Source: Terriglobia bacterium
GTDB lineage: Bacteria > Acidobacteriota > Terriglobia > Terriglobales > Acidobacteriaceae
NCBI GenBank assembly: GCA_020072585.1
Contig: JAIQGL010000018.1
Location: forward strand, 124,001 to 188,000
Direction of reading: 5' to 3'
DNA: 64,000 nt
The position numbers were made by a program, and so were the translations under genes. The notes under the pieces were generated by a model. That model was given only the letters and a program-made list of their open reading frames with translations. It ran no database searches and was not told the DNA's origin. Shown here in pieces: positions 11,902 to 55,815 of the stretch (position 1 is its first letter; the number at the start of each line of letters is the position of its first letter).

Positions 11902-13554
11902 TTAGCTCAGCGCGGGTATTCCGCCTCCAACGGATGGTTTTGGCTGATACGGGAACTGCTCAATTCCTGCCAGTTCGTCGCGAACGGAACCGGCGATTCC
12001 CAGGGCGCGAGTATAGCGATGGAACGTTGTTTTGGGCAGACCAAGACTTTCCCGAGCCGATTTGATATTCCAATTGTGCTGCCGCAGACGGGCAAGAATG
12101 AGTTCCCGCCCAAAAGTTTCCAGAGCTTCGCGCATGGGAACATCCCCCACCAACAAGGCCCCGGCTTTGGGGTTCCATTCTTCTTTTGCGATGTTCGGTA
12201 TGACCCGGTTAAACAAAGCTGCATCAATCGAGCTGCCTGACTTTACATGCGTAACCAGCAGAGAGCATATTCTGGCCAACTCTCGCACGTTACCCGGCCA
12301 CGAATAGCCAACCAGCATTTTCAATACGTCAGCATGGAGGCTTAGAATTTTTTTCTGAGTGCGCTTTTCGTTGTAAGCGATGAAATGACGGACTAGCGCA
12401 GGAATGTCCCATGGACGCTCCCGTAACGGCGCCAGACGGATCGCCTGAGTACGAAAACGATCCAGCAGATCGGGACGCATCCGGCCTTCAGCAACAGCAC
12501 GGTCGGGATCACAGTTAGTGCCTAAAACCACCTGGACATCAATTCTCTGCTCTCGGGTTTCCCCAAGCGGAACAACGGTGCGGTTCTCCAGTACGCGAAG
12601 TAACGTTCCCTGCGCTTTGAGAGAAAGATCGCCGATCTCATCAAGAAATAGTACACCGTGGTCCGCCGCCCGAAACAGGCCAGGCTCATTGGCCAGAGAT
12701 CCGGTGAAAGACCCCTTCTTGTGGCCAAAAAAACGCGCGGTTGCCAGTTCATCTGTAATTTCGGCACAATTCACCGCCACATAGGGACGGTTGCGGCGCG
12801 CACTATAAGCGTAGATGTAGCGGGTTACCAGGTCCTTGCCAGTTCCCTTTTCACCCAGGATAAGGATGGGATCAGGATCTGGGGTACTCGCGGCTGGAAT
12901 ATAAATTTCGTGCAACTCCTGTCGCAATGCCTGCGTTTGCACTGATACGCCAATCAATTCTGGAGCATTCTCCGGCGTTTTGATGTCGATTGATTTAGCT
13001 TCGGTTTCGATTTCAGCTTGTGTCTGTGGGAAGCCAAGGTTGAGGACCTGCCCAAGCGCTAGCGCGTATGGAGTAACCCACTCTCTTGCCACCGCTTCAA
13101 ACTCAGGATTGCCCTCCATTTCTTTTTCAAAATGCAGAACGGCCGCCGGCGCATCAAGAACCGGATCAATAATTGGAATGCAAAGAACACACAGATTGGG
13201 CGAGATTCGCTCGATTGATCCTGCTTTCGTAGGAACCGTTCCCTGAGCGCACCACTGGCTGAAAATTTTCCAGATTCGACTCGTAGCAGGGTCTTCCAGA
13301 TCAGTACCGCTCTCGACCGCGCGAATCTGTTGCGGACTCATTCCATAATGGCACAGCGCCTCCAGCCGGGTTGCAGCCGGGTGGTGCCGAACCAGAAACA
13401 ATCCACCGCGAGCAACTCCTAGTCCTTTGGCCGCTGACTCAAACGATGAGGAAACAGTCTCCTCGGCTTGGCTGGGGTACGATATCCCCCGGAGCAATAT
13501 GGACAATCCCGTGAACAAAGACTCCTGATCGTAAGAAAAGCCTATGGCACCCAT
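11902..13554 (-). CDS. Sigma-54-dependent transcriptional activator (GAF-like, AAA+, Fis HTH)
   Basis: About 550 residues. The N-terminal region (about 15-185) resembles a GAF sensory domain. The central AAA+ domain has Walker A GEKGTGKD, the sigma-54 contact loop as GSFTGS instead of GAFTGA, Walker B GVLFLDEIGDL, and the R-finger region DLLDRFRTQAIRL. The C-terminal Fis-type HTH is WNIKSARESLGLPKTTFHRY. There is no receiver domain, so it should respond to a ligand rather than phosphorylation. I chose the third of three consecutive ATGs because AGAGG lies 7 nt before it; 13569 is the longest start. Upstream are a strong sigma-54-type promoter and a pair of palindromes, so the gene itself seems to be under enhancer control. 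It adjoins the lanthipeptide operon. Confidence 0.9.
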   Translation of the reverse strand: MGAIGFSYDQESLFTGLSILLRGISYPSQAEETVSSSFESAAKGLGVARGGLFLVRHHPAATRLEALCHYGMSPQQIRAVESGTDLEDPATSRIWKIFSQWCAQGTVPTKAGSIERISPNLCVLCIPIIDPVLDAPAAVLHFEKEMEGNPEFEAVAREWVTPYALALGQVLNLGFPQTQAEIETEAKSIDIKTPENAPELIGVSVQTQALRQELHEIYIPAASTPDPDPILILGEKGTGKDLVTRYIYAYSARRNRPYVAVNCAEITDELATARFFGHKKGSFTGSLANEPGLFRAADHGVLFLDEIGDLSLKAQGTLLRVLENRTVVPLGETREQRIDVQVVLGTNCDPDRAVAEGRMRPDLLDRFRTQAIRLAPLRERPWDIPALVRHFIAYNEKRTQKKILSLHADVLKMLVGYSWPGNVRELARICSLLVTHVKSGSSIDAALFNRVIPNIAKEEWNPKAGALLVGDVPMREALETFGRELILARLRQHNWNIKSARESLGLPKTTFHRYTRALGIAGSVRDELAGIEQFPYQPKPSVGGGIPALS

Positions 13555-13689
13555 CATCATTCCTCTCATTCTTTAGCTGCGAAGAGGTCGTCTGGCGTCA
13601 CTACGAAATACCAGTTCCGCATTTCTCAAATCTGATTAGTGCTTCTGGATTCCGTTAAGCAGCCATCGTGCTTCATGCACCTACTTGGT

Positions 13690-13707
13690 GTGCAAGAGTA
13701 TTGCCAA
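13690..13707 (-). promoter_or_regulatory. Sigma-54-type promoter for the activator gene
   Basis: On the minus strand the sequence reads TTGGCAATACTCTTGCA, close to the -24/-12 consensus TTGGCAC-N5-TTGCA. The invariant GG is at 13705-13704 and GC at 13693-13692, exactly 10 nt apart. The predicted start lies about 125 nt before the activator start codon. Confidence 0.65.
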
Positions 13708-13757: not shown

Positions 13758-13793
13758 TGTCCGACACCGGACGCTCCATTCCAGCCATGGACA
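13758..13793. promoter_or_regulatory. Paired enhancer-like palindromes (sites G and H)
   Basis: Two 16-bp imperfect palindromes start 20 bp apart: TGTCCGACACCGGACG (13758-13773) and ATTCCAGCCATGGACA (13778-13793). They match TGTCCA-N4-TGGACA with 3 and 2 mismatches. They lie 65 bp upstream of the GC element of the sigma-54 promoter at 13692. This is the weakest pair in sequence but has the same 20-bp register as the others. Confidence 0.55.
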
Positions 13794-13865: not shown

Positions 13866-15152
13866 TCAGATGATTGTTTCTAACAGCAAAACAGAGGGGA
13901 AAAGGTCAGGGTAGTTCAATCGAAGCAAGGTATAGCCCACCCCGGCAAGCCCAAGAAATAAAGATGGATTTTTTTCAGGCAAGGCAGCTTGATGATCAGA
14001 TGGGTGAAAACGGAAACCTGAGGTGGCCGCACGTGCCAGGAGTTGCATAGCCAACTGGCGGGCGTGTGCCGTTAGCTGCAACCGGCCCAGGACGCTGCCT
14101 GCAATATTCATAATCTCAACCCGGCCAAAATTACCGCAGCAAAGATGATCGACCGGACCTTCAGGAAGCATGCGGGTAATACGCAGCGCTTGTTCCAGAT
14201 CGTGACGCAACGCATGTGAATCGATGGCGATCATACTGCCTAAAATGCCAAGCGCCACTCCGGGCGCGCCCTCACACCAAGAAGCCTTGCTCAACGGCAG
14301 ATTGCAGCGCGGATCAAACCAGGTTTGAAGTTCAGGCATGTAAAGGGTACGTTCGAAAGCAAACCCTTCAATGGCGGCATCACGAAACTCTTCATGTCCG
14401 GTGTACTGAAAAAGACGGATCAAAGCATACGCAATACCCGCGGCGCCATGTGCAAACCCCGACAGCGGAAGTGAATCAACCGCCGCCCAGGCCCGCGGCC
14501 CTGAGTTATAGGAAACGCGTTTCTCAAGAAGCCGCCTGCCGCAAAGGAGCGCAAGCTCAGGTGCTATGCCGCTGTCCATTCCCATGGCGGTCACTTCTTC
14601 AATGAATGAGAGCAGTGCCAGCAATGTTCCGGCACAGCCACACCTGACATCAAGACGTTCTTCCGTCATGATCTGGCCCGGGGTAATGCTGGTTGCCGCT
14701 TCGCGGGCAGAATCAAGAAGTTCAGGCATCTTCAACCACGCCGCAAGTTGCACGCAAGCATAAGGAAGAGAACCTACACCGGCAAGCCCACCAGTTCCAT
14801 TGCCCGTGTGGCGGGCGTCGCCAGAGATGGCGACAGTCTGCTTGATCGCGAGGCGTAGCCGGGCAGCGGAACGAAGTGCCAGATCGCGGGCATCCTGGTT
14901 ATTTGTTGCAAAGTAATAGGCGGCCAGAAATAGTGCTGTCCCGGAGATACCATCGTAAAGCTGCGGACCTTCTGGGGTAGGAGATCTTCTCGCATCGTGA
15001 ACCGAAACATTTAAAGCTGTGCGAGCCGCGCCACCAGTTTCACTGGCGATTGAATTCTCACCAACCCGGCGGAAAATGCCTACAAGCGCTTCGGCTACTT
15101 CGTCCCGCTCTTCACCGGCACCATTGCCCTTGTCTTTATCGTTCTTTGCCAA
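13866..15152 (-). CDS. Stand-alone lanthionine synthetase C-like cyclase with CCG zinc motif
   Basis: 428 residues forming a LanC-type alpha/alpha toroid with repeated GxxG turns (LYDGISGTALFL, GFAHGAAGIAYAL, FLGLAGVGYTLL). The zinc site is visible: Cys293 in SWCEGAPG, then Cys338-Cys339 in HLCCGNFG. Two adjacent Cys followed by Gly is the CCG signature of a subset of LanM cyclases such as ProcM, where zinc has three Cys ligands. The usual His is absent. It should catalyse Cys addition to dehydro-amino acids. The start is a TTG at 15152 preceded by GGAGG, and no ATG lies near. It follows lanKC by 22 bp. It would supply the zinc cyclase activity that LanKC lacks, or act on another peptide. Confidence 0.9.
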   Translation of the reverse strand: MAKNDKDKGNGAGEERDEVAEALVGIFRRVGENSIASETGGAARTALNVSVHDARRSPTPEGPQLYDGISGTALFLAAYYFATNNQDARDLALRSAARLRLAIKQTVAISGDARHTGNGTGGLAGVGSLPYACVQLAAWLKMPELLDSAREAATSITPGQIMTEERLDVRCGCAGTLLALLSFIEEVTAMGMDSGIAPELALLCGRRLLEKRVSYNSGPRAWAAVDSLPLSGFAHGAAGIAYALIRLFQYTGHEEFRDAAIEGFAFERTLYMPELQTWFDPRCNLPLSKASWCEGAPGVALGILGSMIAIDSHALRHDLEQALRITRMLPEGPVDHLCCGNFGRVEIMNIAGSVLGRLQLTAHARQLAMQLLARAATSGFRFHPSDHQAALPEKNPSLFLGLAGVGYTLLRLNYPDLFPSVLLLETII

Positions 15153-15174
15153 TGGTCCTCCGATCCTGTGAGCA

Positions 15175-17868
15175 TCAGGCTGGTATCGATACTCTTATTT
15201 CCCGCGATGATGTCAGCAGTCCGGATTGCTCCAGCAGGCAGTCCAACATAAAGTCGTTCTTTCGCTGGTATAGAAGTCGGTTCAGGAACAGTCCGATTCC
15301 TGCACTACCCGTCCCGTAGTCACAGCACAGCCGGGACAGCATATCTCCAGGGAATGCAATACCTTGTTGCCTTTCAACGCGGAACTGCCGGATGCCTTCG
15401 GCCGCTTTTGTGGCTGCTTCCAGATATCTGGCTTCGCCCGTGAACTGATGCATGTCGAGCATGAAGTCGCCAATCCCAGCCAGGCCAATAAACTTTCCCG
15501 GAAGGACAACGTATTTACGGTCAGTATCGATAAATATCTTTTCCAGGATCGATTGATAGTGTTCTGTTCCCAAAAGCCTGGCATAGCGCAGTACGGCCAT
15601 ACCGATGCCGGCGCTGCCAAACCGCCAATACGGAAACAGCGGCGACTGCCCTTGCGTAGCTTGCCGCCAGGACAGTCCGCCGTCTCTGGTTGTCACCGCA
15701 AAGCTCAGATCAAATTCCAGCCCTCGACGTCCTGCTTCTAAAAAAGCCTCATTGCGGGTGGCCAGATAGAGATACAGCATGAAAACGGCTATGCCAGTGG
15801 CTCCATGTGCGAAGCCAAGAGGCGTTTCTTTTGGTGTATCCCAGAAGCAGCCTGCGGGGGCCAAATGGCAGGTTTCCAGCAGATGGTTGCCGGCGTTCGT
15901 TGCTTTATCCAGATAAAGTTGATTACCGGTTTGCAGGAAGAAATGGAGATTCGTCATGCCCCAACCGGCGGTCCCATAAAAAACTCCCGGAGCATCATGG
16001 AGCAGGCGATGCTGGAATGTTTGCTGGAAAAGCTCTTCCGCTTCCTTCACCGCACCCATTTCCAGCAGGCATAGCGCGATTCCTGACATTCCCACGTAGA
16101 GCCCAGGCGCATAGGTTTGGGATGTAATCTTGTGGCGGAGGATCCAGCTTAACAACTGCTCTGAGTGAGTTCCTGTGATCTGCTTGAGGGCATATCCAAC
16201 ACCTGCCGCGCCGTACGCAAGGCTCAAAGGGTTAGTCGCAAACACCTTTGGATCAGCCGGAAACAACCGGTCCTGGCGTGAATAGGTCGCAGCCTGTTCG
16301 ATGTGCGCAACAATACCGGTCAACAGTGGTTCGTAGTTCCATTCGGCATGCTCCGCAATAACTTCCTGCTCAATCACCGGCTCTGACTCCAGCACTTCCA
16401 ACATTCTGGCCGGCACCGGACGTCGAGTGGGATCCTGGTCCATCAGATCCAGTAGCAGATCAGCGATGCCTTTGGGAAGCCGTGCGTCTCTTTGAATCGT
16501 GGTTACAATTTCTCGCTTCGCCTTTGGCTTGAGATGAAAAAGAGAGTTGATCGGGAACAGGTATGCCAGCAGCACGGCGCCCACAGAATAGTAGTCATCC
16601 GCATATGCGGCGTTGGATCCGGCCAGCCGGTTTTCTGAAACAAATCCGGGCGTGAATACCGAACTTGGGCGGTCCACCCCTATCTGGCTTGCACCCTCAA
16701 AATCAATCAGCTTCAGCTCTGCCTTCCCGGCAAGCACAATAAGGTTGTTGATGGAAAGGTCTGCAAAGACGATCTGATGAGTGTGCAGTACTTCCATGAT
16801 CTTTGCCAGACTGATGCATACAGAACGAAAAGTTGCATACCACTCTTCATACTGCTCAGCTCGGGGTCTGGTCCTCAGCAGAACGTTATGCTGCGCGGAA
16901 TGCCCCCCCATGGAATCGCCTTCAATATATTCTTCGACTAAAAACCAATGCTCCCATTCCTTAAAGAGGTCGACTGGCTGGGGCGCAATTCCGGTGTCCT
17001 TGAGCACGTTGAGCAAACGGTATTCTTTCTTGAGCAACTCCACGGCGTCATAGCCATCAAACGTGGAGTTAATGCACGGGCGTGCCTCTTTAATGACCAC
17101 CTTCTTACCGGTTTGCTGATCAACCGCCCTGTACACTCCGCCGGCGTTGGAGAAGTCGAGCACGTCCTGAATCTTGTAGCGCCCGCCTTTCATTCCCTGG
17201 AATTCCTGCTGTTGCGTACTCGGATCTTCCAACGGAAGCGGGGGATTCTCCCATGACGGCGTCACGGGATAGGCTGTCCTCTGGTCAGGGACTTCGGTGC
17301 CATCCGGCGCCACCAGCATCGGGGTGCGCTCTCCTTTTACATTTAAAACGTCATAGAGGCGCATGCCTCCAAAGCGAAAGAACAGGACGTTGCTGTCTTT
17401 GTAGCGGTGATCAGAAAGGATGTAAGGGCCACGCTGTCCTTCAGTTACACGATGAAGTTGTTCAATCAGGTCAAGGAAGTGGCCATTGTCATGGGGATAG
17501 ATGGTGATGAATTTCCCTGATCTTCCGCGAGACCAATTCTTGCTGTTGAGCAGGAATAAGGTTGACATGTCGAGAGCAAACTTAAAATCCGTATCGCGTC
17601 TGTTGAACAGCACCGAGGTCACGCGTTGCAGAAGATCGCGCGCATTCGCAGGCGTTGCGGAAACATGAATCTTCCAACCCTGTTGTGGTATGGCATTTTG
17701 TGGTGAACCACAATGAAACCAGATGCCATTGCGCTGTATGCCCCATCCTGCGGGAAGAGCTGCGGAAACCAGATCACAAAAATCCGTTCTCTGGGGCGCA
17801 TAGGCATCAAAGTTCTCGTGGTAATCCTTGTCCATCAAGCGATACAACGGATTGGGTCTGCTCCGCAT
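15175..17868 (-). CDS. Class III lanthionine synthetase LanKC (lyase-kinase-cyclase)
   Basis: 897 residues of class III architecture. The N-terminal phospho-Ser/Thr lyase region covers about 1-200 (QGWKIHVSA near 62-71). The protein kinase covers about 230-490, with Lys260 in VVIKEA, catalytic Asp370 and Asn375 in FADLSINNLIV, and metal-binding DFE at Asp389. The cyclase toroid covers about 510-880. Zinc ligands are missing: positions equivalent to SWCEG and CCGN read YWRFGSAG and FIGLAGIG, as expected for class III rather than class IV. The last repeat, RLCCDYGTGSAG, contains two Cys where relatives usually have Ser-Thr. The ATG at 17868 has GAGGAA 7 nt upstream and is preferred over a GTG at 17958. 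It sits 89 bp after the precursor gene and should phosphorylate, dehydrate and cyclise that peptide. Confidence 0.95.
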   Translation of the reverse strand: MRSRPNPLYRLMDKDYHENFDAYAPQRTDFCDLVSAALPAGWGIQRNGIWFHCGSPQNAIPQQGWKIHVSATPANARDLLQRVTSVLFNRRDTDFKFALDMSTLFLLNSKNWSRGRSGKFITIYPHDNGHFLDLIEQLHRVTEGQRGPYILSDHRYKDSNVLFFRFGGMRLYDVLNVKGERTPMLVAPDGTEVPDQRTAYPVTPSWENPPLPLEDPSTQQQEFQGMKGGRYKIQDVLDFSNAGGVYRAVDQQTGKKVVIKEARPCINSTFDGYDAVELLKKEYRLLNVLKDTGIAPQPVDLFKEWEHWFLVEEYIEGDSMGGHSAQHNVLLRTRPRAEQYEEWYATFRSVCISLAKIMEVLHTHQIVFADLSINNLIVLAGKAELKLIDFEGASQIGVDRPSSVFTPGFVSENRLAGSNAAYADDYYSVGAVLLAYLFPINSLFHLKPKAKREIVTTIQRDARLPKGIADLLLDLMDQDPTRRPVPARMLEVLESEPVIEQEVIAEHAEWNYEPLLTGIVAHIEQAATYSRQDRLFPADPKVFATNPLSLAYGAAGVGYALKQITGTHSEQLLSWILRHKITSQTYAPGLYVGMSGIALCLLEMGAVKEAEELFQQTFQHRLLHDAPGVFYGTAGWGMTNLHFFLQTGNQLYLDKATNAGNHLLETCHLAPAGCFWDTPKETPLGFAHGATGIAVFMLYLYLATRNEAFLEAGRRGLEFDLSFAVTTRDGGLSWRQATQGQSPLFPYWRFGSAGIGMAVLRYARLLGTEHYQSILEKIFIDTDRKYVVLPGKFIGLAGIGDFMLDMHQFTGEARYLEAATKAAEGIRQFRVERQQGIAFPGDMLSRLCCDYGTGSAGIGLFLNRLLYQRKNDFMLDCLLEQSGLLTSSREIRVSIPA

Positions 17869-17957
17869 ATCTTTTTCCTCTAACTTAAGTTGCATGGGCC
17901 CTCTGTTGGAATCGGTCAGATCAATTGCCGCTTTCACAAACAGAGGACCCCGTAGCA

Positions 17958-18098
17958 CTACTCCATCTGAAATGGACTATCGGGGCCGATGGGACCTTGG
18001 GGGCAAACGGTACTTACCGCGCTACCAAACAGGTTCGCGAATTCGGAAGAACTGCTATTCGAGTGCAGCCGCTGAAGCATCAGTACGTTCGACATCAT
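17958..18098 (-). CDS. Class III lanthipeptide precursor peptide (LanA)
   Basis: A 46-codon gene with a strong ribosome-binding site (AGAGGAGA about 7 nt before the ATG), directly upstream of lanKC. The leader has VLMLQRL at residues 5-11, matching the LxLQxL-type recognition helix of class III leaders, followed by a Ser-rich spacer (NSSSSEF, 14-20). The core contains SAVSTVC at residues 26-32, a Ser-x-x-Ser-x-x-Cys arrangement of the kind that gives labionin or lanthionine rings. The tail is PQGPIGPDSPFQME with one further Ser at 41. There is only one Cys, so at most one ring. Leader cleavage probably falls around residues 18-24, but no protease gene is nearby. Confidence 0.9.
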   Translation of the reverse strand: MMSNVLMLQRLHSNSSSSEFANLFGSAVSTVCPQGPIGPDSPFQME

Positions 18099-18134: not shown

Positions 18135-18152
18135 CCATGCTAAATAGCATGG
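18135..18152. promoter_or_regulatory. Perfect palindrome overlapping the lan promoter -12 element
   Basis: CCATGCTAAATAGCATGG consists of 8-bp arms around AA. Its right arm includes the GC of the -12 element of the sigma-54-type promoter, and its left arm covers the predicted transcription start. It could be a repressor operator or an early-transcript hairpin. Confidence 0.5.
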
Positions 18153-18162
18153 GAATTGCCAA
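18145..18162 (-). promoter_or_regulatory. Sigma-54-type promoter of the lanthipeptide operon
   Basis: On the minus strand the sequence reads TTGGCAATTCCCATGCTA. GG is at 18160-18159 and GC at 18148-18147, with exactly 10 nt between. The -24 box matches TTGGCA. The -12 box is ATGCT against TTGCT. The predicted start near 18135 leaves a leader of about 37 nt before the lanA ATG. Confidence 0.6.
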
Positions 18163-18425: not shown

Positions 18426-18461
18426 TGTCCAGTGCTGGAAAGGGTTGTCCATGAGTGAACA
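18426..18461. promoter_or_regulatory. Paired enhancer-like palindromes (sites A and B)
   Basis: TGTCCAGTGCTGGAAA (18426-18441) and TGTCCATGAGTGAACA (18446-18461) each match TGTCCA-N4-TGGACA with one mismatch and start 20 bp apart. They lie about 278 bp upstream of the GC element of the lanA promoter. They are also upstream of sites C/D, so they could serve either divergent unit. Confidence 0.65.
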
Positions 18462-18605: not shown

Positions 18606-18641
18606 TGTCCACGGATGGACACCTGTGTCCATGAATGGACA
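18606..18641. promoter_or_regulatory. Paired perfect palindromes (sites C and D)
   Basis: TGTCCACGGATGGACA (18606-18621) and TGTCCATGAATGGACA (18626-18641) are both exact matches to TGTCCA-N4-TGGACA and start 20 bp apart. They lie about 85 bp upstream of the GC of a weak sigma-54-type promoter before the ADOP permease gene. These sites define the consensus. Confidence 0.75.
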
Positions 18642-18711: not shown

Positions 18712-18728
18712 AAGGCCCTCAAGATGCG
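18712..18728 (+). promoter_or_regulatory. Weak sigma-54-type promoter for the ADOP1-regulator-kinase operon
   Basis: AAGGCCCTCAAGATGCG has GG at 18714-18715 and GC at 18726-18727. Only the invariant dinucleotides, the C after GG and the ATGC box match well. It is kept because its distance from sites C/D (85 bp) equals the distance at the second ADOP gene (87 bp). Confidence 0.4.
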
Positions 18729-18848: not shown

Positions 18849-21290
18849 ATGCGAACGCTTTTTCAAGACATATCCTATTCCTTGCGCTCGCTGCAGAAAA
18901 CGCCCGGTTTTACCTCTATGGGGATATTGACCCTTGCTTTGGGGATCGCTGCAAATACCGTTGTTTTCAGCATCGTCAACGCCTCATTATTACGCCCTCT
19001 ACCTTATATAAGCCCTGACAGGCTGGTAATTCTAACCTGGTATGGCCCACATGGACGTTTGACCCGGGATATATCTGCATCCGCATTCTTCATGGTTAAG
19101 GAACGGGCGCGCTCCTTCCAGAACATTGCTGCCGTTCATGGCGTCAATACCGGAGTAAACGTGGCAGCCCTGGGGTCTCCACAGTATAAAAAGGCCGAGC
19201 GAGTTTCTTTGGAATTTTTCCGCACTCTTGGCGCGTCGCCAATACTGGGTAGAGAATTCAATCCAGATGAAGAGCAGGCGGGAGGACCGCAAGTTGTGAT
19301 CCTCAGCTATGGTTTGTGGGAACAAGATTACAACAAGGATACTTCAGCATTAGGAAGCGAGGTTCGTATCAATGGTGAGCCTTATACCATTGTAGGGATC
19401 ATGCAAAAGGGATTTCAGTCATATCCTGATGCGGATTTGTGGCTGCCACTCCCTCTCAGTTCAGCGACTGTTGACGCAGGCAACGAATATCGTGTCATCG
19501 CCCGCTTGAAAGATGGAATAGGCCTGCAAGATGCCCGGAGCGAACTGGCAGCTACGACAGACTATCGGCTTACCTATCCGTTGCCCTCCAAGGCAGAAGA
19601 CATCTCGTTGGTGCCCGATGAGCTGCAGAGCTTCATCGTTTCCGGCGTCCGCAAAAGCTTGCTCTCGTTATTTGGTGCCGTGGTATTTGTCCTTTTGATC
19701 ACGTGCACCAACCTGGCACTGTGTCTTACCGTTCGCGGCGCTGCCCGCAGTCATGAGTTTGCTATCAGGGCCGCTCTGGGCTCCAGCAGTACTCGGTTGA
19801 TCCGGACTTTCCTGATGGATGGGGTTCTAATCTCCATTACGGGCGGAGTGATTGGCAGTATAGCCGGCAAGGAGCTTCTTCCCTTTATCAACTGGTCCGC
19901 ACCGACTGATCTACCGCTAAGCAGCACGATCAGAATTGACATGCACGTGCTGCTGTTTGTGTTGTCAATCTCCGTGGCAACTGCGATTTTTTCCGGGCTC
20001 ACGCCGGCAATCAGGATGTCGCGTGTCAGCCTGAATGACATGATCCGTCAATCGTCTCAGACGGGCAGCCATAGCGTTCAGCAGACGCGGCTTGGCCGGA
20101 TGCTCGTTACAGCCCAGACTGCGCTCGCCCTGCTTTTGCTGGCCGGAACCGCTTCATTGTTGCAAAACTTCTTGAAGCTACAATCGGTACCACCTGGCTT
20201 TGATGCGCAGAACGTCTCTGTTGGACAAATTTCACTGGCGCCTGGCCGCTATGCAACAACCGCGGCCACAGCGCACCTTCTCGATCAGGTTTTAGCCCAG
20301 CTACGCGATGTTCCAGGCGTTGAGACGGTGGCAAGCATCAACGGCCTGCCGCTGGAACAAGGGCTTGGCCTGCCTATGTATCCCGCTGAGGCACACGATA
20401 GAAACGCTTTTGGAGAATCACAGTTTCGGGTTGTCAGCGCTGAATATTTTCGCACTCTTCACATACCACTCATTGCAGGAAGATTCTTTTCAGACAGTGA
20501 TGACAGGGGCAACAAGCCTGTAACAATCGTAAGTGAAGGACTGGCGCGGCAATGGTGGCCCAATCAATCTCCGCTTGGAAAGATGGTCGCCATGGGGGGC
20601 GAACTGGGCGGCCAGTTCTCTGATGTGCCGCATGAGGTAATTGGAGTCGTCGCCGATGTCAGGGAGGCTGGATTGGAAAAACTCCCGCCACCCACGGTCT
20701 TTGTTACCCCCAAACAGGTACCGGACCAAATTACAGCATTTATGAACCGGTTGTTTCCAACCTCCATTATTGTTCGCTCTGATAAATATGCCAACATCTA
20801 CGAATCACTAAGCCATGCCCTGACAAGCGCTGACCGCGATCTGGCAATAGTGTCCTTGCGGCCACTGACCCAGGTAGTGTCTACCTCTTTGGCTCGGCCC
20901 CGCTTTTATGTTTCTTTGATCGGGGCTTTCGGGGCTTTTGCCCTACTGCTGACCGCAGTGGGTTTGTACGGGATATTGAGTTATCAGCTAATTTTACGTA
21001 CCAGGGAGATTGCCATGCGAGTAGCCGTAGGCGCAAAAAAATCACACGTGATAGGTTTAATCGTCAAACAGGGGGTCGGATTGGTTGCCATTGGCATCCT
21101 GCTTGGCTCTGTAGCCAGTATTTTTCTGACTAAATTCCTTGGTGCGTTAATTTATAATATGCTCGACGCTACCACAGGTATTCTTGCAACCGCAGCCCTG
21201 CTTCTTGTAACGATTGCTTTCTTGACCAGCCTGGTGATTGCTGTACGTGCGACGGCAATTGAGCCCATGGTAGTGCTGAGGACCGAGTGA
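18849..21290 (+). CDS. Duplicated orphan ABC permease (ADOP family, MacB/FtsX type)
   Basis: About 813 residues: two copies of a MacB periplasmic-core plus FtsX-like permease unit. The first membrane helix is in the typical TLALGIAANTVVFSIVNA, with LLRPLPY next. Paired FtsX regions lie near 290-420 and 690-800, ending in AIEPMVVLRTE. No ATPase domain is present, as usual for the acidobacterial orphan permeases; an ATPase encoded elsewhere must energise it. The start at 18849 (MRTLFQDISYSL) fits the family, with GGAGG about 12 nt upstream; a frame from 18801 adds unrelated residues. It leads an operon with an NtrC-type regulator (TGATG overlap) and a kinase. A role in peptide export or self-protection is inferred from position. 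Confidence 0.9.
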   Translation: MRTLFQDISYSLRSLQKTPGFTSMGILTLALGIAANTVVFSIVNASLLRPLPYISPDRLVILTWYGPHGRLTRDISASAFFMVKERARSFQNIAAVHGVNTGVNVAALGSPQYKKAERVSLEFFRTLGASPILGREFNPDEEQAGGPQVVILSYGLWEQDYNKDTSALGSEVRINGEPYTIVGIMQKGFQSYPDADLWLPLPLSSATVDAGNEYRVIARLKDGIGLQDARSELAATTDYRLTYPLPSKAEDISLVPDELQSFIVSGVRKSLLSLFGAVVFVLLITCTNLALCLTVRGAARSHEFAIRAALGSSSTRLIRTFLMDGVLISITGGVIGSIAGKELLPFINWSAPTDLPLSSTIRIDMHVLLFVLSISVATAIFSGLTPAIRMSRVSLNDMIRQSSQTGSHSVQQTRLGRMLVTAQTALALLLLAGTASLLQNFLKLQSVPPGFDAQNVSVGQISLAPGRYATTAATAHLLDQVLAQLRDVPGVETVASINGLPLEQGLGLPMYPAEAHDRNAFGESQFRVVSAEYFRTLHIPLIAGRFFSDSDDRGNKPVTIVSEGLARQWWPNQSPLGKMVAMGGELGGQFSDVPHEVIGVVADVREAGLEKLPPPTVFVTPKQVPDQITAFMNRLFPTSIIVRSDKYANIYESLSHALTSADRDLAIVSLRPLTQVVSTSLARPRFYVSLIGAFGAFALLLTAVGLYGILSYQLILRTREIAMRVAVGAKKSHVIGLIVKQGVGLVAIGILLGSVASIFLTKFLGALIYNMLDATTGILATAALLLVTIAFLTSLVIAVRATAIEPMVVLRTE

Positions 21291-22789
21291 TGGAAACCAG
21301 AGAAAGCATTCTGCCATCACCCGTGGACGCAACCGGCTTCTTCTCAAGGCCTGGCGTAACGTTCCTCTCCGATAACAACGATAGCTTTATGCGTATTAAT
21401 GATCAGCCTTACCGCGTCCTGATAGCAGACGACCAGCCGGCCGTGCTGGATGCGCTGAAGCTGTTGTTTAGATCGCACGATTTTGAAGTGGATACCGTGC
21501 GCTCACCGCAGGTGGTGCTGGAATCACTGGCGTTGCGGGAATATGACGCGGTACTTCTTGACCTGAACTACGCTCGAGATACCACATCAGGCCGCGAGGG
21601 CATTGAACTTCTTGACAGAGTCAGAGAAATCGACAACCAGCTGCCCATCATCGTTATGACGGCTTGGGGCACCATCGATCTTGCGGTTGCAGCTGTGCGT
21701 CGCGGTGCTCGCGATTTTATCCAAAAGCCCTGGGATGACGAGCGGCTCATTTCCACGATCACGGTCCATGCGGAGCTGTACCGGGCCCTGCGCCAGGGAC
21801 AGCGCCTGTCGGCCGAAAACCAGTTGATGCGAAACCAGGGGCGAACCACATTCGTGGCCCAGGCTCCCGCCATGCGGCCAGTGAGCGAAGCCATTGCGCA
21901 AATTGGCCCGTCTGATGCAAGTGTGCTGATTACCGGGGAACATGGCAGCGGAAAAGAAGTCGTCGCCCAGATGTTACATGCAGTGTCACGCCGCGCTGAC
22001 AAGCCACTGATCACTGTAAATACCGGCGGCTTACCTGAAGGCACTTTTGAAAGCGAGCTGTTTGGTCACGTAAGGGGCGCTTTTACTGATGCACGCACAG
22101 ACCGTATTGGCCGTTTTGAAATGGCGGATGGTGGGACCCTGTTTCTGGATGAAATAGCCAACGTTCCAATAAGGCAGCAAGCCAGACTCTTGCGCGTACT
22201 TGAAACCGGCGAAATGGAGCGTGTAGGTTCCTCGCGAACGCAAAAGGTAAACGTCCGCGTAATTTCGGCTACAAACGCTGATCTTAAGGCTGCATGCGCT
22301 AACGGGAGCTTCCGCGAGGATCTCCTGTTCCGCCTGAATACCGTCGAAATCCACTTGCCTCCGCTACGAGAGCGGCGGGAGGACATACCTGCGCTCTCCG
22401 CGCATTTTCTGCACAAGTACACCCAACGCTATACCAAACAGATTGATGGGTTCACGCCGGAGGCGATGGAAAAGCTGCTGGAATACTACTGGCCGGGAAA
22501 CGTCAGAGAGTTGGACCACACTATTGAACGCGCCGTTCTGATGTGCCGCGAAGAGAAGATTGACGCTAATCATTTAGGTCTTCCCTCTGCCAGCAGCGCC
22601 CGCACTTCCAATCTCTCTGATATGAGCCTGGAAGAAGTGGAAGCACAGCTGATCGGCAAAGCGCTGGCGCGCTATAACGGAAACGTAAGCCAGGCAGCCG
22701 AAGTGCTGGGACTGAGCCGGGGAACATTCTACCGGCGCATGGAAAAACACGGCCTCTATGTTCCTTCCGCAGTCAAGAAAGAAAAGTAG
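21290..22789 (+). CDS. NtrC-family response regulator (receiver, AAA+, Fis HTH)
   Basis: About 499 residues. After an unusual 35-residue N-terminal extension comes a receiver domain (VLIADDQPAVLDAL, phospho-acceptor Asp in AVLLDLNYA, Lys in FIQKPW). The AAA+ sigma-54-interaction domain has Walker A GEHGSGKE, contact loop GAFTDA, Walker B GTLFLDEIAN and ENTV-like region FRLNTVEIHLPPLRERREDI. The Fis-type HTH is NVSQAAEVLGLSRGTFYRRM. The ATG overlaps the permease stop (TGATG). It is the best candidate to bind the TGTCCA-N4-TGGACA pairs around it, including those upstream of its own operon (autoregulation). The 32-bp overlap with the kinase gene indicates translational coupling. Confidence 0.9.
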   Translation: METRESILPSPVDATGFFSRPGVTFLSDNNDSFMRINDQPYRVLIADDQPAVLDALKLLFRSHDFEVDTVRSPQVVLESLALREYDAVLLDLNYARDTTSGREGIELLDRVREIDNQLPIIVMTAWGTIDLAVAAVRRGARDFIQKPWDDERLISTITVHAELYRALRQGQRLSAENQLMRNQGRTTFVAQAPAMRPVSEAIAQIGPSDASVLITGEHGSGKEVVAQMLHAVSRRADKPLITVNTGGLPEGTFESELFGHVRGAFTDARTDRIGRFEMADGGTLFLDEIANVPIRQQARLLRVLETGEMERVGSSRTQKVNVRVISATNADLKAACANGSFREDLLFRLNTVEIHLPPLRERREDIPALSAHFLHKYTQRYTKQIDGFTPEAMEKLLEYYWPGNVRELDHTIERAVLMCREEKIDANHLGLPSASSARTSNLSDMSLEEVEAQLIGKALARYNGNVSQAAEVLGLSRGTFYRRMEKHGLYVPSAVKKEK

Positions 22790-24230
22790 TAAGCGCCAGT
22801 TTTCGCTGCCTTTCGAACGGCGATTGCTGTTTTCCATCCTGACCACGGGACTTCCCTGCGCTATTTTGTCGTTCGTTCTGCTCTGGACCAACTCTTATTC
22901 GCTCGACCACAAGATTGAAGGAACGGCGTTCTCAATCCTGTTATGGTTTTCCCTGGGCTTTGCCGCGCGTAATCGCGTGGTCAATTCTGTCCGCGTGCTG
23001 TCCAATGTGGTTGCATCTCTCAAGGAAGATGACTTCTCATTTCGCGCCACGCGTGCTGTCTCAGGAGACGCGCTGGGCGATCTAGCCATCGAAATCAATA
23101 ACCTGGCTCAGGCGTTGGAATCCGAGCGCCTGGGAACAATGGAAGCGGAAAATCTGCTGCGCAAAGTCCTGGCTGAAGCCGAAGGAGTGATTCTGGCTTT
23201 CTCGCTGGACGGGAAATTAAAACTATTTAATCGTGCCGCCGCAACCTTTCTCGGCAAAAAGGAAGAGGACCTTGCGAACCATGATGCCAAGGAACTTGGC
23301 ATTGCTGATCTTCTTGGCGGTCCAACATCGCAGACCATTTCCCGTCTTTCCAATGGTATTGAAAGGCGCTGGATCGTCCGGCGCACGCACTTCCGCCAGA
23401 ATGGTGTCCCGCATCACCTGGTAATGCTCTCTGAAGCTTCAGAAGCATTGCGCGCTGAAGAGCGGCTTGCATGGCAGCGAATGGTTCGCGTCCTGAGCCA
23501 TGAAATCAACAATTCCCTGGCTCCCATTAAATCCGTGGCCCGTACCCTGCGTAGAATTTTGTCACAAAACGTATTGCCGGAACGCGTTCACCAGGATTTT
23601 GACCTCGGCCTGGATGTGATTGGAACGCGTGCAGAGGCGCTGAACCGTTTTCTGCAAAGCTATGCTCAATTGTCCAAATTGCCTCCACCCATGCGCCGCA
23701 CGGTGGGCCTGCGGAACATGGCGGAGCGTGTGAGCGGCCTGGAAGCACGGCTGACAATCACGGTACTCCCGGGGCCAGATATCGCGATCAACGTGGATCC
23801 TGATCAGCTTGAGCAAGTGCTCATCAATCTGACCAAGAATGCGACTGAGGCTGTCCTTGCAAAATACACAGCCGAAACGTTGCCCGATCTCAGCGGTGAA
23901 CCTGCTGTCAGCGTGAGTTGGAATGTGGCCGGCAATGACTTGGAACTGTGGGTCCGCGACCGGGGCGTGGGTTTACTTGATGCGTCCAATCTCTTCGTGC
24001 CTTTCTATACCACAAAGGAAACCGGCACCGGAATCGGCCTTGTCCTTTGCAGACAGATCATTGAAGCCCACGGTGGAAGACTGACAATCCAGAACAGAAC
24101 CGACACTGCCGGGTGTGAAGTACAGATCAAGATTCCAGCATGCATAGTCTCTGATGGCCAGCAGCATGCTTCTGGTGAGAAGCCCAAGAGCGGCGTAAGA
24201 GCTGATCTTAAATACATTCCCTCAAAATAA
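22758..24230 (+). CDS. NtrY-like sensor histidine kinase
   Basis: 490 residues. Two N-terminal membrane helices (about 24-46 and 55-72) are separated by only a few residues, so there is almost no periplasmic loop. A HAMP-like region (about 75-130) and a PAS domain (about 135-235) follow. The HisKA motif is RMVRVLSHEINNSLAPIKS. The HATPase has N-box INLTKNATEAV and G-boxes RDRGVGLLD and GTGIGLVLCRQIIEAHGG. The short loop suggests sensing in the membrane or cytoplasm, as for cell-envelope stress. It partners the overlapping NtrC-type regulator. Confidence 0.9.
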   Translation: MFLPQSRKKSSKRQFSLPFERRLLFSILTTGLPCAILSFVLLWTNSYSLDHKIEGTAFSILLWFSLGFAARNRVVNSVRVLSNVVASLKEDDFSFRATRAVSGDALGDLAIEINNLAQALESERLGTMEAENLLRKVLAEAEGVILAFSLDGKLKLFNRAAATFLGKKEEDLANHDAKELGIADLLGGPTSQTISRLSNGIERRWIVRRTHFRQNGVPHHLVMLSEASEALRAEERLAWQRMVRVLSHEINNSLAPIKSVARTLRRILSQNVLPERVHQDFDLGLDVIGTRAEALNRFLQSYAQLSKLPPPMRRTVGLRNMAERVSGLEARLTITVLPGPDIAINVDPDQLEQVLINLTKNATEAVLAKYTAETLPDLSGEPAVSVSWNVAGNDLELWVRDRGVGLLDASNLFVPFYTTKETGTGIGLVLCRQIIEAHGGRLTIQNRTDTAGCEVQIKIPACIVSDGQQHASGEKPKSGVRADLKYIPSK

Positions 24231-24312: not shown

Positions 24313-26772
24313 CTATTCATACCGCAACGCAATAACAGGATCCAGACGCATGGCTCGTCGTGCCGGCAAATAACACGCTCCTACCGCAACAATTAACAAT
24401 ATCAAGGTTACCGGGACGAACGTACCCGGGTCAGCCGCGCTGATGCCGACTAACAAATTGGCCATGGCGCGCGTCAAGGCAAAGGCAGCAAGCAGTCCCA
24501 GCACTACTCCCGCAGTAATCAAGCGCACGCCCTGGCCCAGAATCAGGCTCAGGATGTTGCTCTTGCTGGCGCCGAGTGCCATGCGTACACCGATTTCGCG
24601 AGTGCGCTGAGCGGCCGCGAAAGACACTACGCCATAAACTCCCACAACGGCGATCACAAAGCCCAGCACACCCATGATTGCTGTGAGTGCTGCTCCTAGT
24701 CGAAACACCAGAAACCCGTTTCCTCCGGCCATGGCCTCTCTCATGGTCTGCAGATCGGAAACCGGCATTTCCGGATCGAGGCCCTGAATCTGCTGCTTCA
24801 CCTGCGTGATCAAAGACTCAGGGGAGACCGATGAGCGCACCTGGAGGATGCGCATGGAAGTGAAGTTCTGGTTAAAAGGAACATAGTAGTAGGGTAGTGG
24901 TCCTGAAAAATAACCGAAGAGCCTGCTGTCATGGGCCACTCCCACAACCTGAAGGAATGGTCCTGACGAGCTCTTGGTGCTAAAGCGTTTGCCCACTGCA
25001 TCTTCGTTGGGCCAGAACCGGTCCGCCATGGACTGATTCACAATGGCAACCAGTGGAACAGTCGAATTGTCCGCCTCAGTGAAAGAACGTCCCCGCAAGA
25101 GCGGTGTCCGGGCGGTCTCAAAATAGTCAGTACCGATCCGATTGAAAAACACGAGTGGAGGCTGTTGGCCTGCAGGCAAGGGCTGACCCTCTACAAAAAC
25201 CTGGCTTCCGTCATTGTAGTTTCCCATGGGAACGCTGAAAGCCTGGCTCGTCGACTGCACGCCCGGTAAAGCCCGTACGCGGCGTTCAAGTTCACGATAG
25301 AACTCGGTCGCACGCGTTTGGTCGTAACCAGCCTGGTGAGGATCCAGCATGACGTTGATGACGTTGTCCGGCTCAAAGCCCAGAGCCATGTGTTGAGCCT
25401 TGTCCAGACTGCGAAGAAACCGCGCGGCAACGATCAGCAGCATCAAAGAACATGCCACCTGCGCCACTACCAGGAAGCTGCGTACGCGCAAGCGGCCCGC
25501 GCTGGCGGAACCTCCACGCCCGCCTTCCTGAAGACCAGCACTCAATCCCCCACGTGCGGCGCGCAACGCTGGCCACGCGCCTACAATCACTCCCGTGACC
25601 AGCGCAGCCAGCAGACTGTAACCAAAGACGCGCCAATCAAATCCAAAATCGAGGACCAGGGGAAGCTTGGTTCCCAGGTTAATTGAGCCTATAGCGCCGC
25701 TTGCCCACATTCCTAAAAATACACCTGAGAAGGCGCTGAACAGCGCCAGCACAATGCTCTCCGTAAGCAATTGCCGCACGACTCGCGTCCGTGTGGCGCC
25801 CAATGCCATACGCAAGGAAATCTCACGTTGACGGGTGGTGGCCCGAACAAGCATCAGGTTTGCAACGTTCATGCAAGCCAGCACCAAAACCACGCCGGCC
25901 AGAACAAGAAACAAGCCTGCAATCAAAGGAATGGCGCTGGCAAGCCTGGGTATGGGCCGCGCCAACTTCTCCGGCACCACACTTACCGTTACGCCATCAT
26001 TTGTCTTGGGATATTCTTTCGACAGACGGGTTGCAACCAAGTTAACGGAACTCTGGGCCTGCGCCAGGCTTGTACCAGATTTGAGACGGCCCAATACTGC
26101 AAGGATTCTCTGACTGCGATCCGTCCACAATCCGTTCCCTCGTGCTTCGCTCGCCATCATGCTCAAAGGCAGATACGCCTGCATGTCTACATTGGCTGCG
26201 ACGCCATGAAACCCTTTGGGAGCAATCCCAACCACCACGGCAGCATTTCCGTCAACGCGCACTTGCTTGCCAACCACACCGGAGTCGCCTCCAAACCTCT
26301 TCTGCCAATAGGAATATCCCAACACGACAATCGGAGTGGCACCGGGCTGCTCTCCCTCATCCGGAAGGAACAGCCGGCCGGCGGCGGGCTGAATGCCCAA
26401 CGCGGAAAAGAAATTGCCGGTAACATAGCTGTAAACCAGAGGCTCTGCTCTGCCGCCAGCGCTAAATCCACCCAATCCAATCTGGTAACCAAACAAGTCA
26501 GAGAATGTATCTGCTTGCTTGCGGAAATCGACGAGATCCGTGTAAGAAAAGTAGTAGATTCCTAATGTGTCGCCCTTCTGCTGGGCCGCCAGGACCATGA
26601 TTTGATTGGGATCAGTTACCGGCAATGGCCGCAGCCAGCCATTCACAACACTAAAAATCGCAGTGTTAGTTCCAATTCCCAGCGCCAGCGTGAGGACTGC
26701 AACAATGGCAAAGGACGGGTTTTTTAGTAGCTGACGGATTGCATATTGAATGTCTTGCTTCAGGGTGTGCAC
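24313..26772 (-). CDS. Second duplicated orphan ABC permease (ADOP family)
   Basis: About 819 residues with the same duplicated MacB-core/FtsX layout as the first ADOP protein. It has LTLALGIGTNTAIFSVVNG in the first helix region, NLMLVRATTRQREISLRMA and the second copy AAAQRTREIGVRMALGASK, ending LDPVIALRYE. I chose the GTG at 26772 because AGGAGA lies 9 nt upstream and VHTLKQDIQYAIRQLLKNP is the standard family beginning. The frame stays open to 26976 but covers promoter and operator sequence. It converges on the kinase gene and carries its own pair of palindromes upstream, so it is probably in the same regulon as the first permease. Confidence 0.9.
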   Translation of the reverse strand: MHTLKQDIQYAIRQLLKNPSFAIVAVLTLALGIGTNTAIFSVVNGWLRPLPVTDPNQIMVLAAQQKGDTLGIYYFSYTDLVDFRKQADTFSDLFGYQIGLGGFSAGGRAEPLVYSYVTGNFFSALGIQPAAGRLFLPDEGEQPGATPIVVLGYSYWQKRFGGDSGVVGKQVRVDGNAAVVVGIAPKGFHGVAANVDMQAYLPLSMMASEARGNGLWTDRSQRILAVLGRLKSGTSLAQAQSSVNLVATRLSKEYPKTNDGVTVSVVPEKLARPIPRLASAIPLIAGLFLVLAGVVLVLACMNVANLMLVRATTRQREISLRMALGATRTRVVRQLLTESIVLALFSAFSGVFLGMWASGAIGSINLGTKLPLVLDFGFDWRVFGYSLLAALVTGVIVGAWPALRAARGGLSAGLQEGGRGGSASAGRLRVRSFLVVAQVACSLMLLIVAARFLRSLDKAQHMALGFEPDNVINVMLDPHQAGYDQTRATEFYRELERRVRALPGVQSTSQAFSVPMGNYNDGSQVFVEGQPLPAGQQPPLVFFNRIGTDYFETARTPLLRGRSFTEADNSTVPLVAIVNQSMADRFWPNEDAVGKRFSTKSSSGPFLQVVGVAHDSRLFGYFSGPLPYYYVPFNQNFTSMRILQVRSSVSPESLITQVKQQIQGLDPEMPVSDLQTMREAMAGGNGFLVFRLGAALTAIMGVLGFVIAVVGVYGVVSFAAAQRTREIGVRMALGASKSNILSLILGQGVRLITAGVVLGLLAAFALTRAMANLLVGISAADPGTFVPVTLILLIVAVGACYLPARRAMRLDPVIALRYE

Positions 26773-26815: not shown

Positions 26816-26833
26816 AAGCATCTTTCTGGCCAG
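26816..26833 (-). promoter_or_regulatory. Sigma-54-type promoter of the second ADOP gene
   Basis: On the minus strand the sequence reads TGGCCAGAAAGATGCTT, with GG at 26831-26830 and GC at 26819-26818. The -12 box ATGCT is the same as at the lanA promoter. The predicted start near 26806 is about 34 nt before the GTG. The paired palindromes lie 87 bp upstream of the GC. Confidence 0.5.
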
Positions 26834-26905: not shown

Positions 26906-26941
26906 TGTCCATATCTGGACTGGGGTGTCCAGTAGTGGACC
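26906..26941. promoter_or_regulatory. Paired enhancer-like palindromes (sites E and F)
   Basis: TGTCCATATCTGGACT (26906-26921) and TGTCCAGTAGTGGACC (26926-26941) each match TGTCCA-N4-TGGACA with one mismatch and start 20 bp apart. They sit in the classical enhancer position, about 100-135 bp before the predicted start of the second ADOP gene. Confidence 0.7.
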
Positions 26942-54588: not shown

Positions 54589-55815
54589 CTATTTGGAGAT
54601 CAAGGAATGCTGATCCAATCCGTCCAGTTCCGGACCGGAATGCCCATAGGAGGACAGTTGCCTGCAATCGCCGATTCTCTGTGCTGCTGATTTGGCACCG
54701 TCTTCAGACTGGATGATGGCAGCCACCGTTTGCGCTCGCTCCTGATAACGCTCATATAGATCGAAGGTGTGACAGATTGCAGTAGAAAGCCGTTCGACCG
54801 ATAACTCCCGCTGGGGAATCACTGCAGAAGTAGTGCCGTGTTGCATGGTCAGGGCGCCCCAAGCCGGCTGGTCAATCATCCAGGGAACCACGATGGAGGG
54901 CACTCCTGCACGCAGGCACGCCGCAGTGGTTCCAACTCCGCCATGGTGAATAATCAAGCTGGCCTGATTGAAGAGCCAGCCATGGGGAGCGTGGCCAATC
55001 ATTTTGATGAATGGCGGTAGCGATTTTGCATCCAGTCCCAGTGACCTCCATCCTCTCTGGATGATGGTGCGCTTCCCTGCTGACTCAAGAGCTGCAATCA
55101 GTAATTTCGTGGTTGCGGCGGGATCTTTCGGAACCATGCTTCCGAAAGTCATGATAATCGGTTTTTCGCCGGCCGCAAGAAATTCAGCGAGCGGGCGGGA
55201 CGGAGAAAACGGCGTATCTTTGCAGAAAAAGAAGCCGGGAGCCTGGTGCGGGCTGAAGCCCGTCAATGCGGGGCTGATTGCGTACAGTGCCATGAATCGG
55301 GAATGCGAATCTTCTCCAAACGGATCATCCAAAGCCTGGAAGCCAAGCTGACATCGGCAGCGATTGATGGCCTCACCCGCCTGTTCTTTCGTCGCCTGGT
55401 CTTCTTCGCCAAAGTGCGCAAGACGGACAGTGATGAAGGGAATCCCAAGAGTCTCCTGCACCATGTGGGCGGCAAAGCTGTAGCAGGATGCCACCAACAC
55501 ATCCGCTTCCTCACACACATTGCTTAAATCGCGAAACATGGCCGGAACAGCGAAAGAGAAGCCTTCAAAGAATATGCTCCACTGCCGCGTGGGATCAGGC
55601 TCATTGACCATTTTCATGGAGAGTTGGCTGGCCCACTCGTTCTCCCAGAATGGCCCGACAGGCGCAAAGTCAATGCCAGTACCTTCGGCCATCGGCTGAA
55701 AATTAGGAGGTGCAGCAAGGATGACTGAGTGCCCCAGTTCTTTCAACTCTTGTCCCAACGCCAGAAATGGCATCACGTCACCCGTGGACCCGACACTATT
55801 CAGCACAATGCGCAT
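54589..55815 (-). CDS. Family 1 (UGT/MGT-type) glycosyltransferase
   Basis: 408 residues, GT-B fold. The N-terminal RIVLNSVGSTGDVMPFLALG is the acceptor-domain start of sterol/macrolide glycosyltransferases. The C-terminal donor motif is IIHHGGVGTTAACLRAGVPS, then PWMIDQPAWG. It should transfer a sugar from a nucleotide sugar to a lipophilic acceptor. Its place in the NRPS operon suggests glycosylation of the product, or glycosylation for self-protection. No sugar biosynthesis genes are in the window, so the donor is probably a common UDP-sugar. Confidence 0.9.
   Translation of the reverse strand: MRIVLNSVGSTGDVMPFLALGQELKELGHSVILAAPPNFQPMAEGTGIDFAPVGPFWENEWASQLSMKMVNEPDPTRQWSIFFEGFSFAVPAMFRDLSNVCEEADVLVASCYSFAAHMVQETLGIPFITVRLAHFGEEDQATKEQAGEAINRCRCQLGFQALDDPFGEDSHSRFMALYAISPALTGFSPHQAPGFFFCKDTPFSPSRPLAEFLAAGEKPIIMTFGSMVPKDPAATTKLLIAALESAGKRTIIQRGWRSLGLDAKSLPPFIKMIGHAPHGWLFNQASLIIHHGGVGTTAACLRAGVPSIVVPWMIDQPAWGALTMQHGTTSAVIPQRELSVERLSTAICHTFDLYERYQERAQTVAAIIQSEDGAKSAAQRIGDCRQLSSYGHSGPELDGLDQHSLISK

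Follow-up and report, generated by a model that had tools for sequence, protein, structure and literature searches.

Does a very small gene ahead of lanKC and lanC in the genome of a soil Acidobacteriota bacterium encode a genuine class III lanthipeptide precursor, and if so, what would a separate LanC and the regulatory sites around the operon add to its production? Class III lanthipeptides made with LanKC synthetases include SapB/AmfS and labyrinthopeptin. The window, meaning the whole 64-kb stretch of DNA analysed here, comes from a genome of 6.9 Mb in 74 contigs (G000), and coordinates given without a locus code are numbered in it (Table 1). Comparison loci are L014, in the same genome, L015 (genome G257, a congener and the closest relative), L012 (G119), L029 (G651) and L011 (a Gammaproteobacteria MAG). 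The explanation that we consider likely as a whole is a class III locus in which LanKC dehydrates the precursor, the separate LanC probably helps to close its rings, and NtrC/sigma-54 control takes in the neighbouring permeases.

A class III precursor and synthetase on one strand

The precursor gene lanA (ORF sequence MMSNVLMLQRLHSNSSSSEFANLFGSAVSTVCPQGPIGPDSPFQME) has a ribosome-binding site, AAAGAGGAGACAAA, 5' of its ATG, and encodes a VLMLQRL leader and a SAVSTVC core. An earlier note on this DNA had described a 46-codon gene with such a ribosome site, leader and core, lying directly ahead of lanKC and lanC, and we found all of these elements as claimed, the three genes being on one strand. 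The likely start of lanKC, ATG 17868, is 89 nt past the lanA stop with a ribosome site, AGAGGAAAAAGAT, in front, and matches the start of the L015 gene (MRSRPNPL); the LanKC match in that genome stands at 81%.

The synthetase scores 760.9 bits with the NCBIfam class III model NF038151 (cut-off 575), contains the Pfam domains RamC_N, Pkinase and LANC_like, and aligns with the solved ThurKC (8sao) across residues 75–893 of its 927-aa frame. Its cyclase domain has YWRFGSAG and KFIGLAG where the WCxG and C[CH]G zinc ligands are expected, and zinc ligands are absent from the LanKC cyclase domains at all ten loci compared below. The model score and the ligand-free cyclase bear out the class III identity proposed in the earlier note. 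Class IV LanL was rejected, as NF038150 gives 593.2 bits against a cut-off of 650 and the fused cyclase is without zinc ligands. We also rejected a degenerate locus: the frames are open and dN/dS between the window and L015 (Nei-Gojobori) is low, at 0.047 for lanKC, 0.091 for lanC (dS near saturation) and 0.109 for lanA (44 codons only, dS near saturation), these values being rough because dS is about 2 for all three genes. Judged from its sequence, this is very probably a genuine class III lanthipeptide locus in an unusual form, with a predicted peptide product.

Table 1 Features of the lanthipeptide locus and its surroundings, in window coordinates.
Feature	Position	Strand	Remarks
sigma-54 activator without receiver domain	11902..13569	(-)	PF00158; orthologue in L015
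sigma-54-type box of activator gene, TGGCAATACTCTTGCA	13691..13706	(-)	10/12; L015 6063 also 10/12
dyad pair upstream of sigma-54 activator gene	13758..13793	(.)	3 mismatches; L015 6115-6150
lanC, separate CCG-type (Cys-Cys-Cys) zinc cyclase, 428 aa	13866..15152	(-)	PF05147 155 bits, predicted zinc ligands, tree, model
lanKC, class III synthetase (RamC_N lyase, kinase, LanC-like), ~897 aa	15175..17868	(-)	NF038151, Pfam domains, ThurKC alignment
lanA, 46-aa class III precursor	17958..18098	(-)	alternative second ATG at 18095
SAVSTVC codons (residues 26-32, SxxSx2C ring motif)	18003..18023	(-)	motif definition per extract of PMC11251773
sigma-54-type -24/-12 box of lanA, TGGCAATTCCCATGCT	18146..18161	(-)	9/12; putative
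dyad pair nearer lanA (TGTCC-N6-GGACA twice, 20 bp apart)	18426..18461	(.)	2 mismatches; L015 10718-10753; likely activator site
dyad pair nearer ADOP1	18606..18641	(.)	perfect, 0 mismatches; likely activator site
weak sigma-54-type box candidate of ADOP1, AGGCCCTCAAGATGCG	18713..18728	(+)	7/12; L015 7, L012 9, L029 9
ADOP1, MacB/FtsX-like duplicated permease, divergent from lanA	18849..21290	(+)	TIGR03434 744 bits vs cut-off 622.3
NtrC-type response regulator, candidate activator for dyad pairs	21287..22789	(+)	receiver + AAA + HTH_8; 89% identical in L015, 73% in L012
sensor histidine kinase	22758..24230	(+)	HATPase_c
ADOP2 permease	24313..26772	(-)	TIGR03434 869 bits (longer frame); GTG start inferred from L015 orthologue
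sigma-54-type box of ADOP2, TGGCCAGAAAGATGCT	26817..26832	(-)	9/12; L015 9, L012 11
dyad pair upstream of ADOP2	26906..26941	(.)	2 mismatches; L015 19735-19770, L012 7170-7205

The precursor is conserved upstream of lanKC

LanKC relatives were detected in 4 of 298 genomes of the order (E 1e-40), 4 of the 9 genomes of the genus and 6 of 396 genomes of the phylum (E 1e-30), four of the last being over the family cut-off; these samples overlap. Ten LanKC loci were used, two each from G000 and G626 and one each from G257, G119, G651, G032, G572 and the Gammaproteobacteria MAG. G558, G543 and G572:C6 were left out, their NF038151 matches spanning only about positions 40–430 of the model, and a leader-motif scan of the partial G558 and G543 matches with their flanks listed no ORF. 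The G651 lanKC match crosses one TGA, and its 900-aa ORF is open.

When ORFs of 25–110 aa were searched for a VLxLQxL-like leader followed by SxxSx2-5C, precursor-like ORFs were found upstream of lanKC at 10/10 loci (22 ORFs in total, at least one per locus), compared to a mean of 0.03 and a maximum of 1 in a control of 100 shuffles in two-base blocks. Among 814 small ORFs in the window, lanA was the single match. One of the checks put forward in the earlier note was whether homologues of lanKC, too, are preceded by the small gene, and with precursor-like ORFs at every locus it turned out in the note's favour. In an alignment of ten precursors, one per locus, M1, L5, L7 and Q8 are invariant, and S25 and C31 are kept in at least 90% (numbered from the second Met). 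Judged by their motifs, these conserved features have known counterparts in the LELQL leader motif needed by ThurKC (PMC10604976) and, for type III peptides, in a VxxLQ motif combined with SxxSx(2-5)C (PMC11251773), both papers being drawn on here in extract; the SxxSx2C spacing of LanA is at the short end of that range.

Two of the comparison loci hold more than one precursor. At L011 (5490–6810), a series of four or more ORFs for class III precursors (MKNVLSLQEI...SAASLGC) stands ahead of one lanKC. The second class III locus of the window's own genome (G000:C52, L014 7520–13110) contains two similar precursors, lanKC and then an ABC transporter; between the kinase and the cyclase, in the linker, its lanKC frame is broken by in-frame TGA and TAG codons into ORFs of 522 and 394 aa, so that the gene has decayed or else is naturally split into kinase and cyclase.

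A rival reading is that lanA is a small ORF that arose by chance next to a LanKC-like kinase serving some other function. In its favour, LanA reaches only 15.6 bits with NF038154, the NCBIfam lanthi_III_a precursor model (cut-off 22), which is one subfamily model and not the class definition, and a Pfam scan of LanA gave no match. However, the synthetase is full-length class III and the precursor is conserved together with its motifs, and this conservation at 10/10 loci makes a chance ORF very unlikely, to a degree that leaves it hardly any weight.

As a class III precursor, LanA would be bound by LanKC through the VLMLQRL leader helix; LanKC would then phosphorylate LanA serines and eliminate the phosphate, and a thioether ring, either lanthionine or labionin, would close between S26/S29 and C32. 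The earlier note had proposed a single ring at residues 26–32. The SxxSx2C motif for such a ring is present and the ring could form there, but its singleness is an incomplete account, as serines 13 and 15–18 are also candidates that might be dehydrated too. The PQGP tail of LanA is common only to the L015 precursor, which has a second Cys in its tail.

A separate zinc-type LanC behind lanKC

The operon as the earlier note described it was right in its genes and silent on three of its features: the zinc-type, LanM-like character of lanC, the sigma-54-type boxes and the dyads. The lanC start, TTG 15152, is 22 nt past the lanKC stop, with a ribosome site, CGGAGGACCA, in front. Its product aligns with the LicM2 cyclase, carries predicted zinc ligands of the CCG type (Cys in SWCEG, Cys-Cys in LCCG), and has both the catalytic Asp and His positions filled. 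LanC stands behind lanKC in the window and L015 genomes, with 70% identity between the two proteins; the L015 LanC retains WC and CCG and has Tyr where the usual catalytic His would be. A structural model of LanC (pLDDT 83.6, pTM 0.87) matches LanC-fold structures, the best being GCR2, LanCL2 and LicM2 at TM 0.60–0.68.

In a tree of 26 rows, the two LanCs, from the window and L015, fall inside a 10-row clade (support 99/98) whose remaining eight rows are all CCG-type LanM with DUF4135, with six CHG LanM rows apart and LanKC far off. The tree includes 14 LanM rows, with the partial loci L036, L037 and L039 and matches without a returned locus left out, and DUF4135 was confirmed in 12 of these 14 (8/8 CCG, 4/6 CHG) in a scan that omitted L038 and L062 (L062 equals L061 across the tree stretch). 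The idea that LanC is a LanKC relic was rejected, since the tree groups it with LanM, as was its classification as a class II LanM, since the 428-aa protein has LANC_like only in Pfam and matches TIGR03897 at positions 535–932 only, scoring 260.2 against a cut-off of 304. Compared to class II LanM with a CCG cyclase (prochlorosin-type, 'type IIa D-CCC' in the extract of PMC11251773), the window LanC has the CCG triad in common and groups within the CCG LanM cyclases of Acidobacteriota, but lacks the DUF4135 dehydratase domain and is a free-standing protein of a class III operon. The same extract (Table 1 of PMC11251773) lists eight predicted peptides nearest to L-CCC (lyase-plus-CCC) synthetases, so that the combination of a lyase with a CCC cyclase has precedent; the L-CCC synthetases have the same lyase-type dehydration and CCC cyclase, whereas a separate LanC beside LanKC is not specified in that extract.

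Whole-genome LANC_like searches show LanC adjoining lanKC in 2/10 loci (L029 covers 1.1 kb past lanKC, and L011 the next ORF only), with L012 among the loci without an adjacent LanC, and class III maturation is therefore not generally LanC-dependent. In the window's own genome, LANC_like matches are found in three places only, LanC and the two LanKCs, and therefore no LanM was detected. Across the phylum sample, LanC relatives occur in 35/396 genomes (E 1e-10), the best being LanM frames near 1,100 aa. LanC-length frames (414–477 aa) occur in nine other genomes of this sample, of which only G626 has LanKC, on other contigs; we counted these frames against the explanation that we prefer. A separate CCG LanC in G651 (33% identical to the window LanC, on a 3990-base contig beside an ORF that looks by eye like a transposase) and a CHG-type LanC on another contig of G119 were not taken as orthologues.

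These data bear on whether LanC takes part in the pathway at all, as opposed to being a passenger in an ordinary class III locus or serving another pathway, for example that of a LanB-type dehydratase elsewhere in the genome. Such a full-length dehydratase (1079 aa) is encoded at G000:C38:129247-131199 (L083), where C38 has no LANC_like match, and it could use the window LanC. In addition to the 2/10 count, loci without LanC keep the same precursor design, the L015 protein has the Tyr substitution, and ThurKC is a LanKC that forms rings unaided (PMC10604976, in extract). Nevertheless, the gene is only 22 nt from lanKC with a strong ribosome site, its zinc cysteines are retained in both species (dN/dS 0.09, dS near saturation), and so is its position behind lanKC at 70% identity; taken with these points, we regard a passenger LanC as somewhat unlikely.

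In the explanation we prefer, the separate LanC, with its kinship to the LanM cyclases of class II, would probably assist zinc ring closure on the LanKC-dehydrated peptide. A stronger version, which we advance tentatively as a possibility, is a two-cyclase system in which LanKC dehydrates and the LanM-derived CCG LanC steers or takes over the rings, combined with one sigma-54 regulon comprising the peptide, the ADOP permeases and a dedicated sensor kinase. If true, the two cyclases would make rings or stereochemistry beyond what LanKC alone makes.

Sigma-54-type boxes and paired dyads as a probable link between the operon and neighbouring permeases

NtrC/sigma-54 two-component regulons are characterised by a receiver-AAA-HTH regulator, -24/-12 boxes and paired upstream dyads. 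We scored sigma-54-type boxes as GG-N10-GC near TGGCACG-N4-TTGCA over 12 positions. A putative promoter box is present upstream of lanA in 4/4 genus members with lanKC (4/9 genus genomes), with 9–10 of the 12 scored positions: TGGCAATTCCCATGCT in the window, TGGCAGCGCTCATGCT in L015, TGGCATACAGCTTGCG in L012 and TGGCTACTCTCTTGCT in L029, the window, L015 and L029 boxes scoring 9. The distance from box to the start considered is 63, 62, 58 and 50 nt, respectively; counted to the Met of the MNRILGLQ leader, another 30 nt downstream, the L029 distance becomes 80 nt. Sigma-54-like boxes are common by chance, with 73 at 9/12 or better on both strands of the 64 kb, and it is the place of the lanA box that is shared. 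For lanA, ADOP2 and the activator gene, the box sits between a dyad pair and the gene. The genome has one sigma-54 gene.

Exact TGTCC-N6-GGACA occurs in the window as two single sites only, 20 bp apart, which form the pair at 18606, against 0.05 expected. With up to three mismatches allowed across a pair, the locus contains four pairs (13758, 18426, 18606, 26906), and the matching places in L015 hold four as well (6115, 10718, 11413, 19735). In L012 there is a single pair, in front of ADOP2 (7170, one mismatch), and L029 has one in the lanA/ADOP1 gap (4356, spacing 21 bp); the L012 lanA/ADOP1 gap holds only a 5-mismatch pair, a level of five or fewer that 6/200 background stretches reach. Distance suggests which of the 18426 and 18606 pairs belongs to lanA and which to ADOP1. 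Across the nine genus genomes, two of which are less than 90% complete, there are eight pairs in G000, four in G257, three in G119, one each in G650 and G041 and none in four genomes, G651 being among these because its pair spacing differs (21 bp). A backward control pattern gave 0 in all nine. Four of the eight G000 pairs are in the locus and four elsewhere. Among the neighbours of the outside pairs at C26, G119 C109:26990, G119 C90, G650 and G041, there was no evident second lanthipeptide; further outside pairs lie at C16 and C57:201451. The window pair at 54621 (3 mismatches) is inside a glycosyltransferase ORF and is probably due to chance.

A divergent ADOP1 homologue is found in the matching place in L015, L012 and L029. 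The divergent unit of ADOP1, response regulator and histidine kinase is kept in L015 and L012, while the L029 contig ends soon past ADOP1 and the kinase orthologue of that genome is on another contig. With its orthologues (80, 60 and 57%), the histidine kinase is present in exactly those 4/9 genus genomes that carry lanKC, whereas the top matches in the remaining five stand at 36–44%. Given the kept unit and this co-occurrence, the leading candidate to act at the dyads is the NtrC-type regulator. Transcription of lanA-lanKC-lanC would thereby need sigma-54 and be switched on by this divergently encoded response regulator binding the paired TGTCC-N6-GGACA dyads, with the same signal turning on the two ADOP permeases and the further sigma-54 activator.

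The dyads could instead serve one of two other regulators. The first is the receiver-less sigma-54 activator (11902–13569), whose gene comes last on the lan strand and is itself preceded by a dyad pair. The second is a paralogous two-component system of the genus, since G650 and G041 each have one similar pair and no kinase orthologue, only a paralogue. The activator sits poorly with L012, where none was seen among the scanned large ORFs of the stretch, yet a 1-mismatch ADOP2 pair is present together with an orthologue of the response regulator; we consider either assignment unlikely and retain the neighbouring response regulator as the candidate. The pairs in G650 and G041 (L063, L066) are beside an ORF that by eye resembles MacA/HlyD, with a look-alike pair at G000:C16:16926, and are perhaps sites of such a paralogous system. 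A NusG-domain protein (L012 7233–7967) lies between lanKC and ADOP2 in G119, and a NusG-looking ORF (by eye) is near the dyad pair at G000:C26:42115 (L069).

Other genes around the locus

Adjoining the lan locus, an NRPS-type cluster (27058–60097) contains condensation/adenylation modules, thioesterases and two PALP enzymes, as well as an ATP-grasp amino-acid ligase, a beta-eliminating lyase, ketosynthases, an MFS transporter and a glycosyltransferase. From window position 63239 on, G000:C57:187239-189737 (L084 740–3238) encodes a protein of 832 aa that matches Lant_dehydr_N in part and whose neighbours look by eye like thioesterase, SDR and NRPS genes. The protein encoded at 9865–11418 contains a helical domain that resembles vanadium chloroperoxidase (VCPO_2nd, DUF6851).

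Relation to known systems and biological meaning

The window operon agrees with class III LanKC systems such as ThurKC/andalusicin (extract of PMC10604976) in the domain order of LanKC, the LxLQ-type leader, the SxxSx2-5C core and the zinc-ligand-free cyclase domain, and differs from them in adding a zinc-type LanC, a sigma-54-type box and paired dyads, with ADOP permeases alongside. An ABC transporter is directly behind lanKC in four of the other nine loci (L014, L026, L027, L028), whereas the window has ADOP permeases instead, which may have a role in export or protection. Its regulator layout, boxes and dyads are those of NtrC/sigma-54 regulons, with the difference that the candidate target is a class III lanthipeptide; in the open-licence literature, we found no case of NtrC/sigma-54 control of such a peptide.

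Experimentally identified class III clusters come from Actinobacteria, Firmicutes and Myxobacteria according to the extract of PMC12328550, and a Lysobacter comparison has class III lanthipeptide and LanKC rows marked 'No ortholog' for the strain studied (PMC10745450, in extract). A search of the open-licence literature found no characterised class III lanthipeptide from Acidobacteriota.

Understanding of zinc-free ring closure by class III enzymes has only begun (PMC10604976, in extract), and with a zinc-less LanKC and a zinc LanC behind one precursor, this operon offers a direct test of each cyclase's contribution. The conserved dyad pairs offer a way into the timing of peptide expression in such Acidobacteriota and into the question of which permeases accompany it. 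Should the peptide and the ADOP permeases form one sigma-54 regulon under a dedicated kinase, the peptide may belong to an envelope signalling or defence response.
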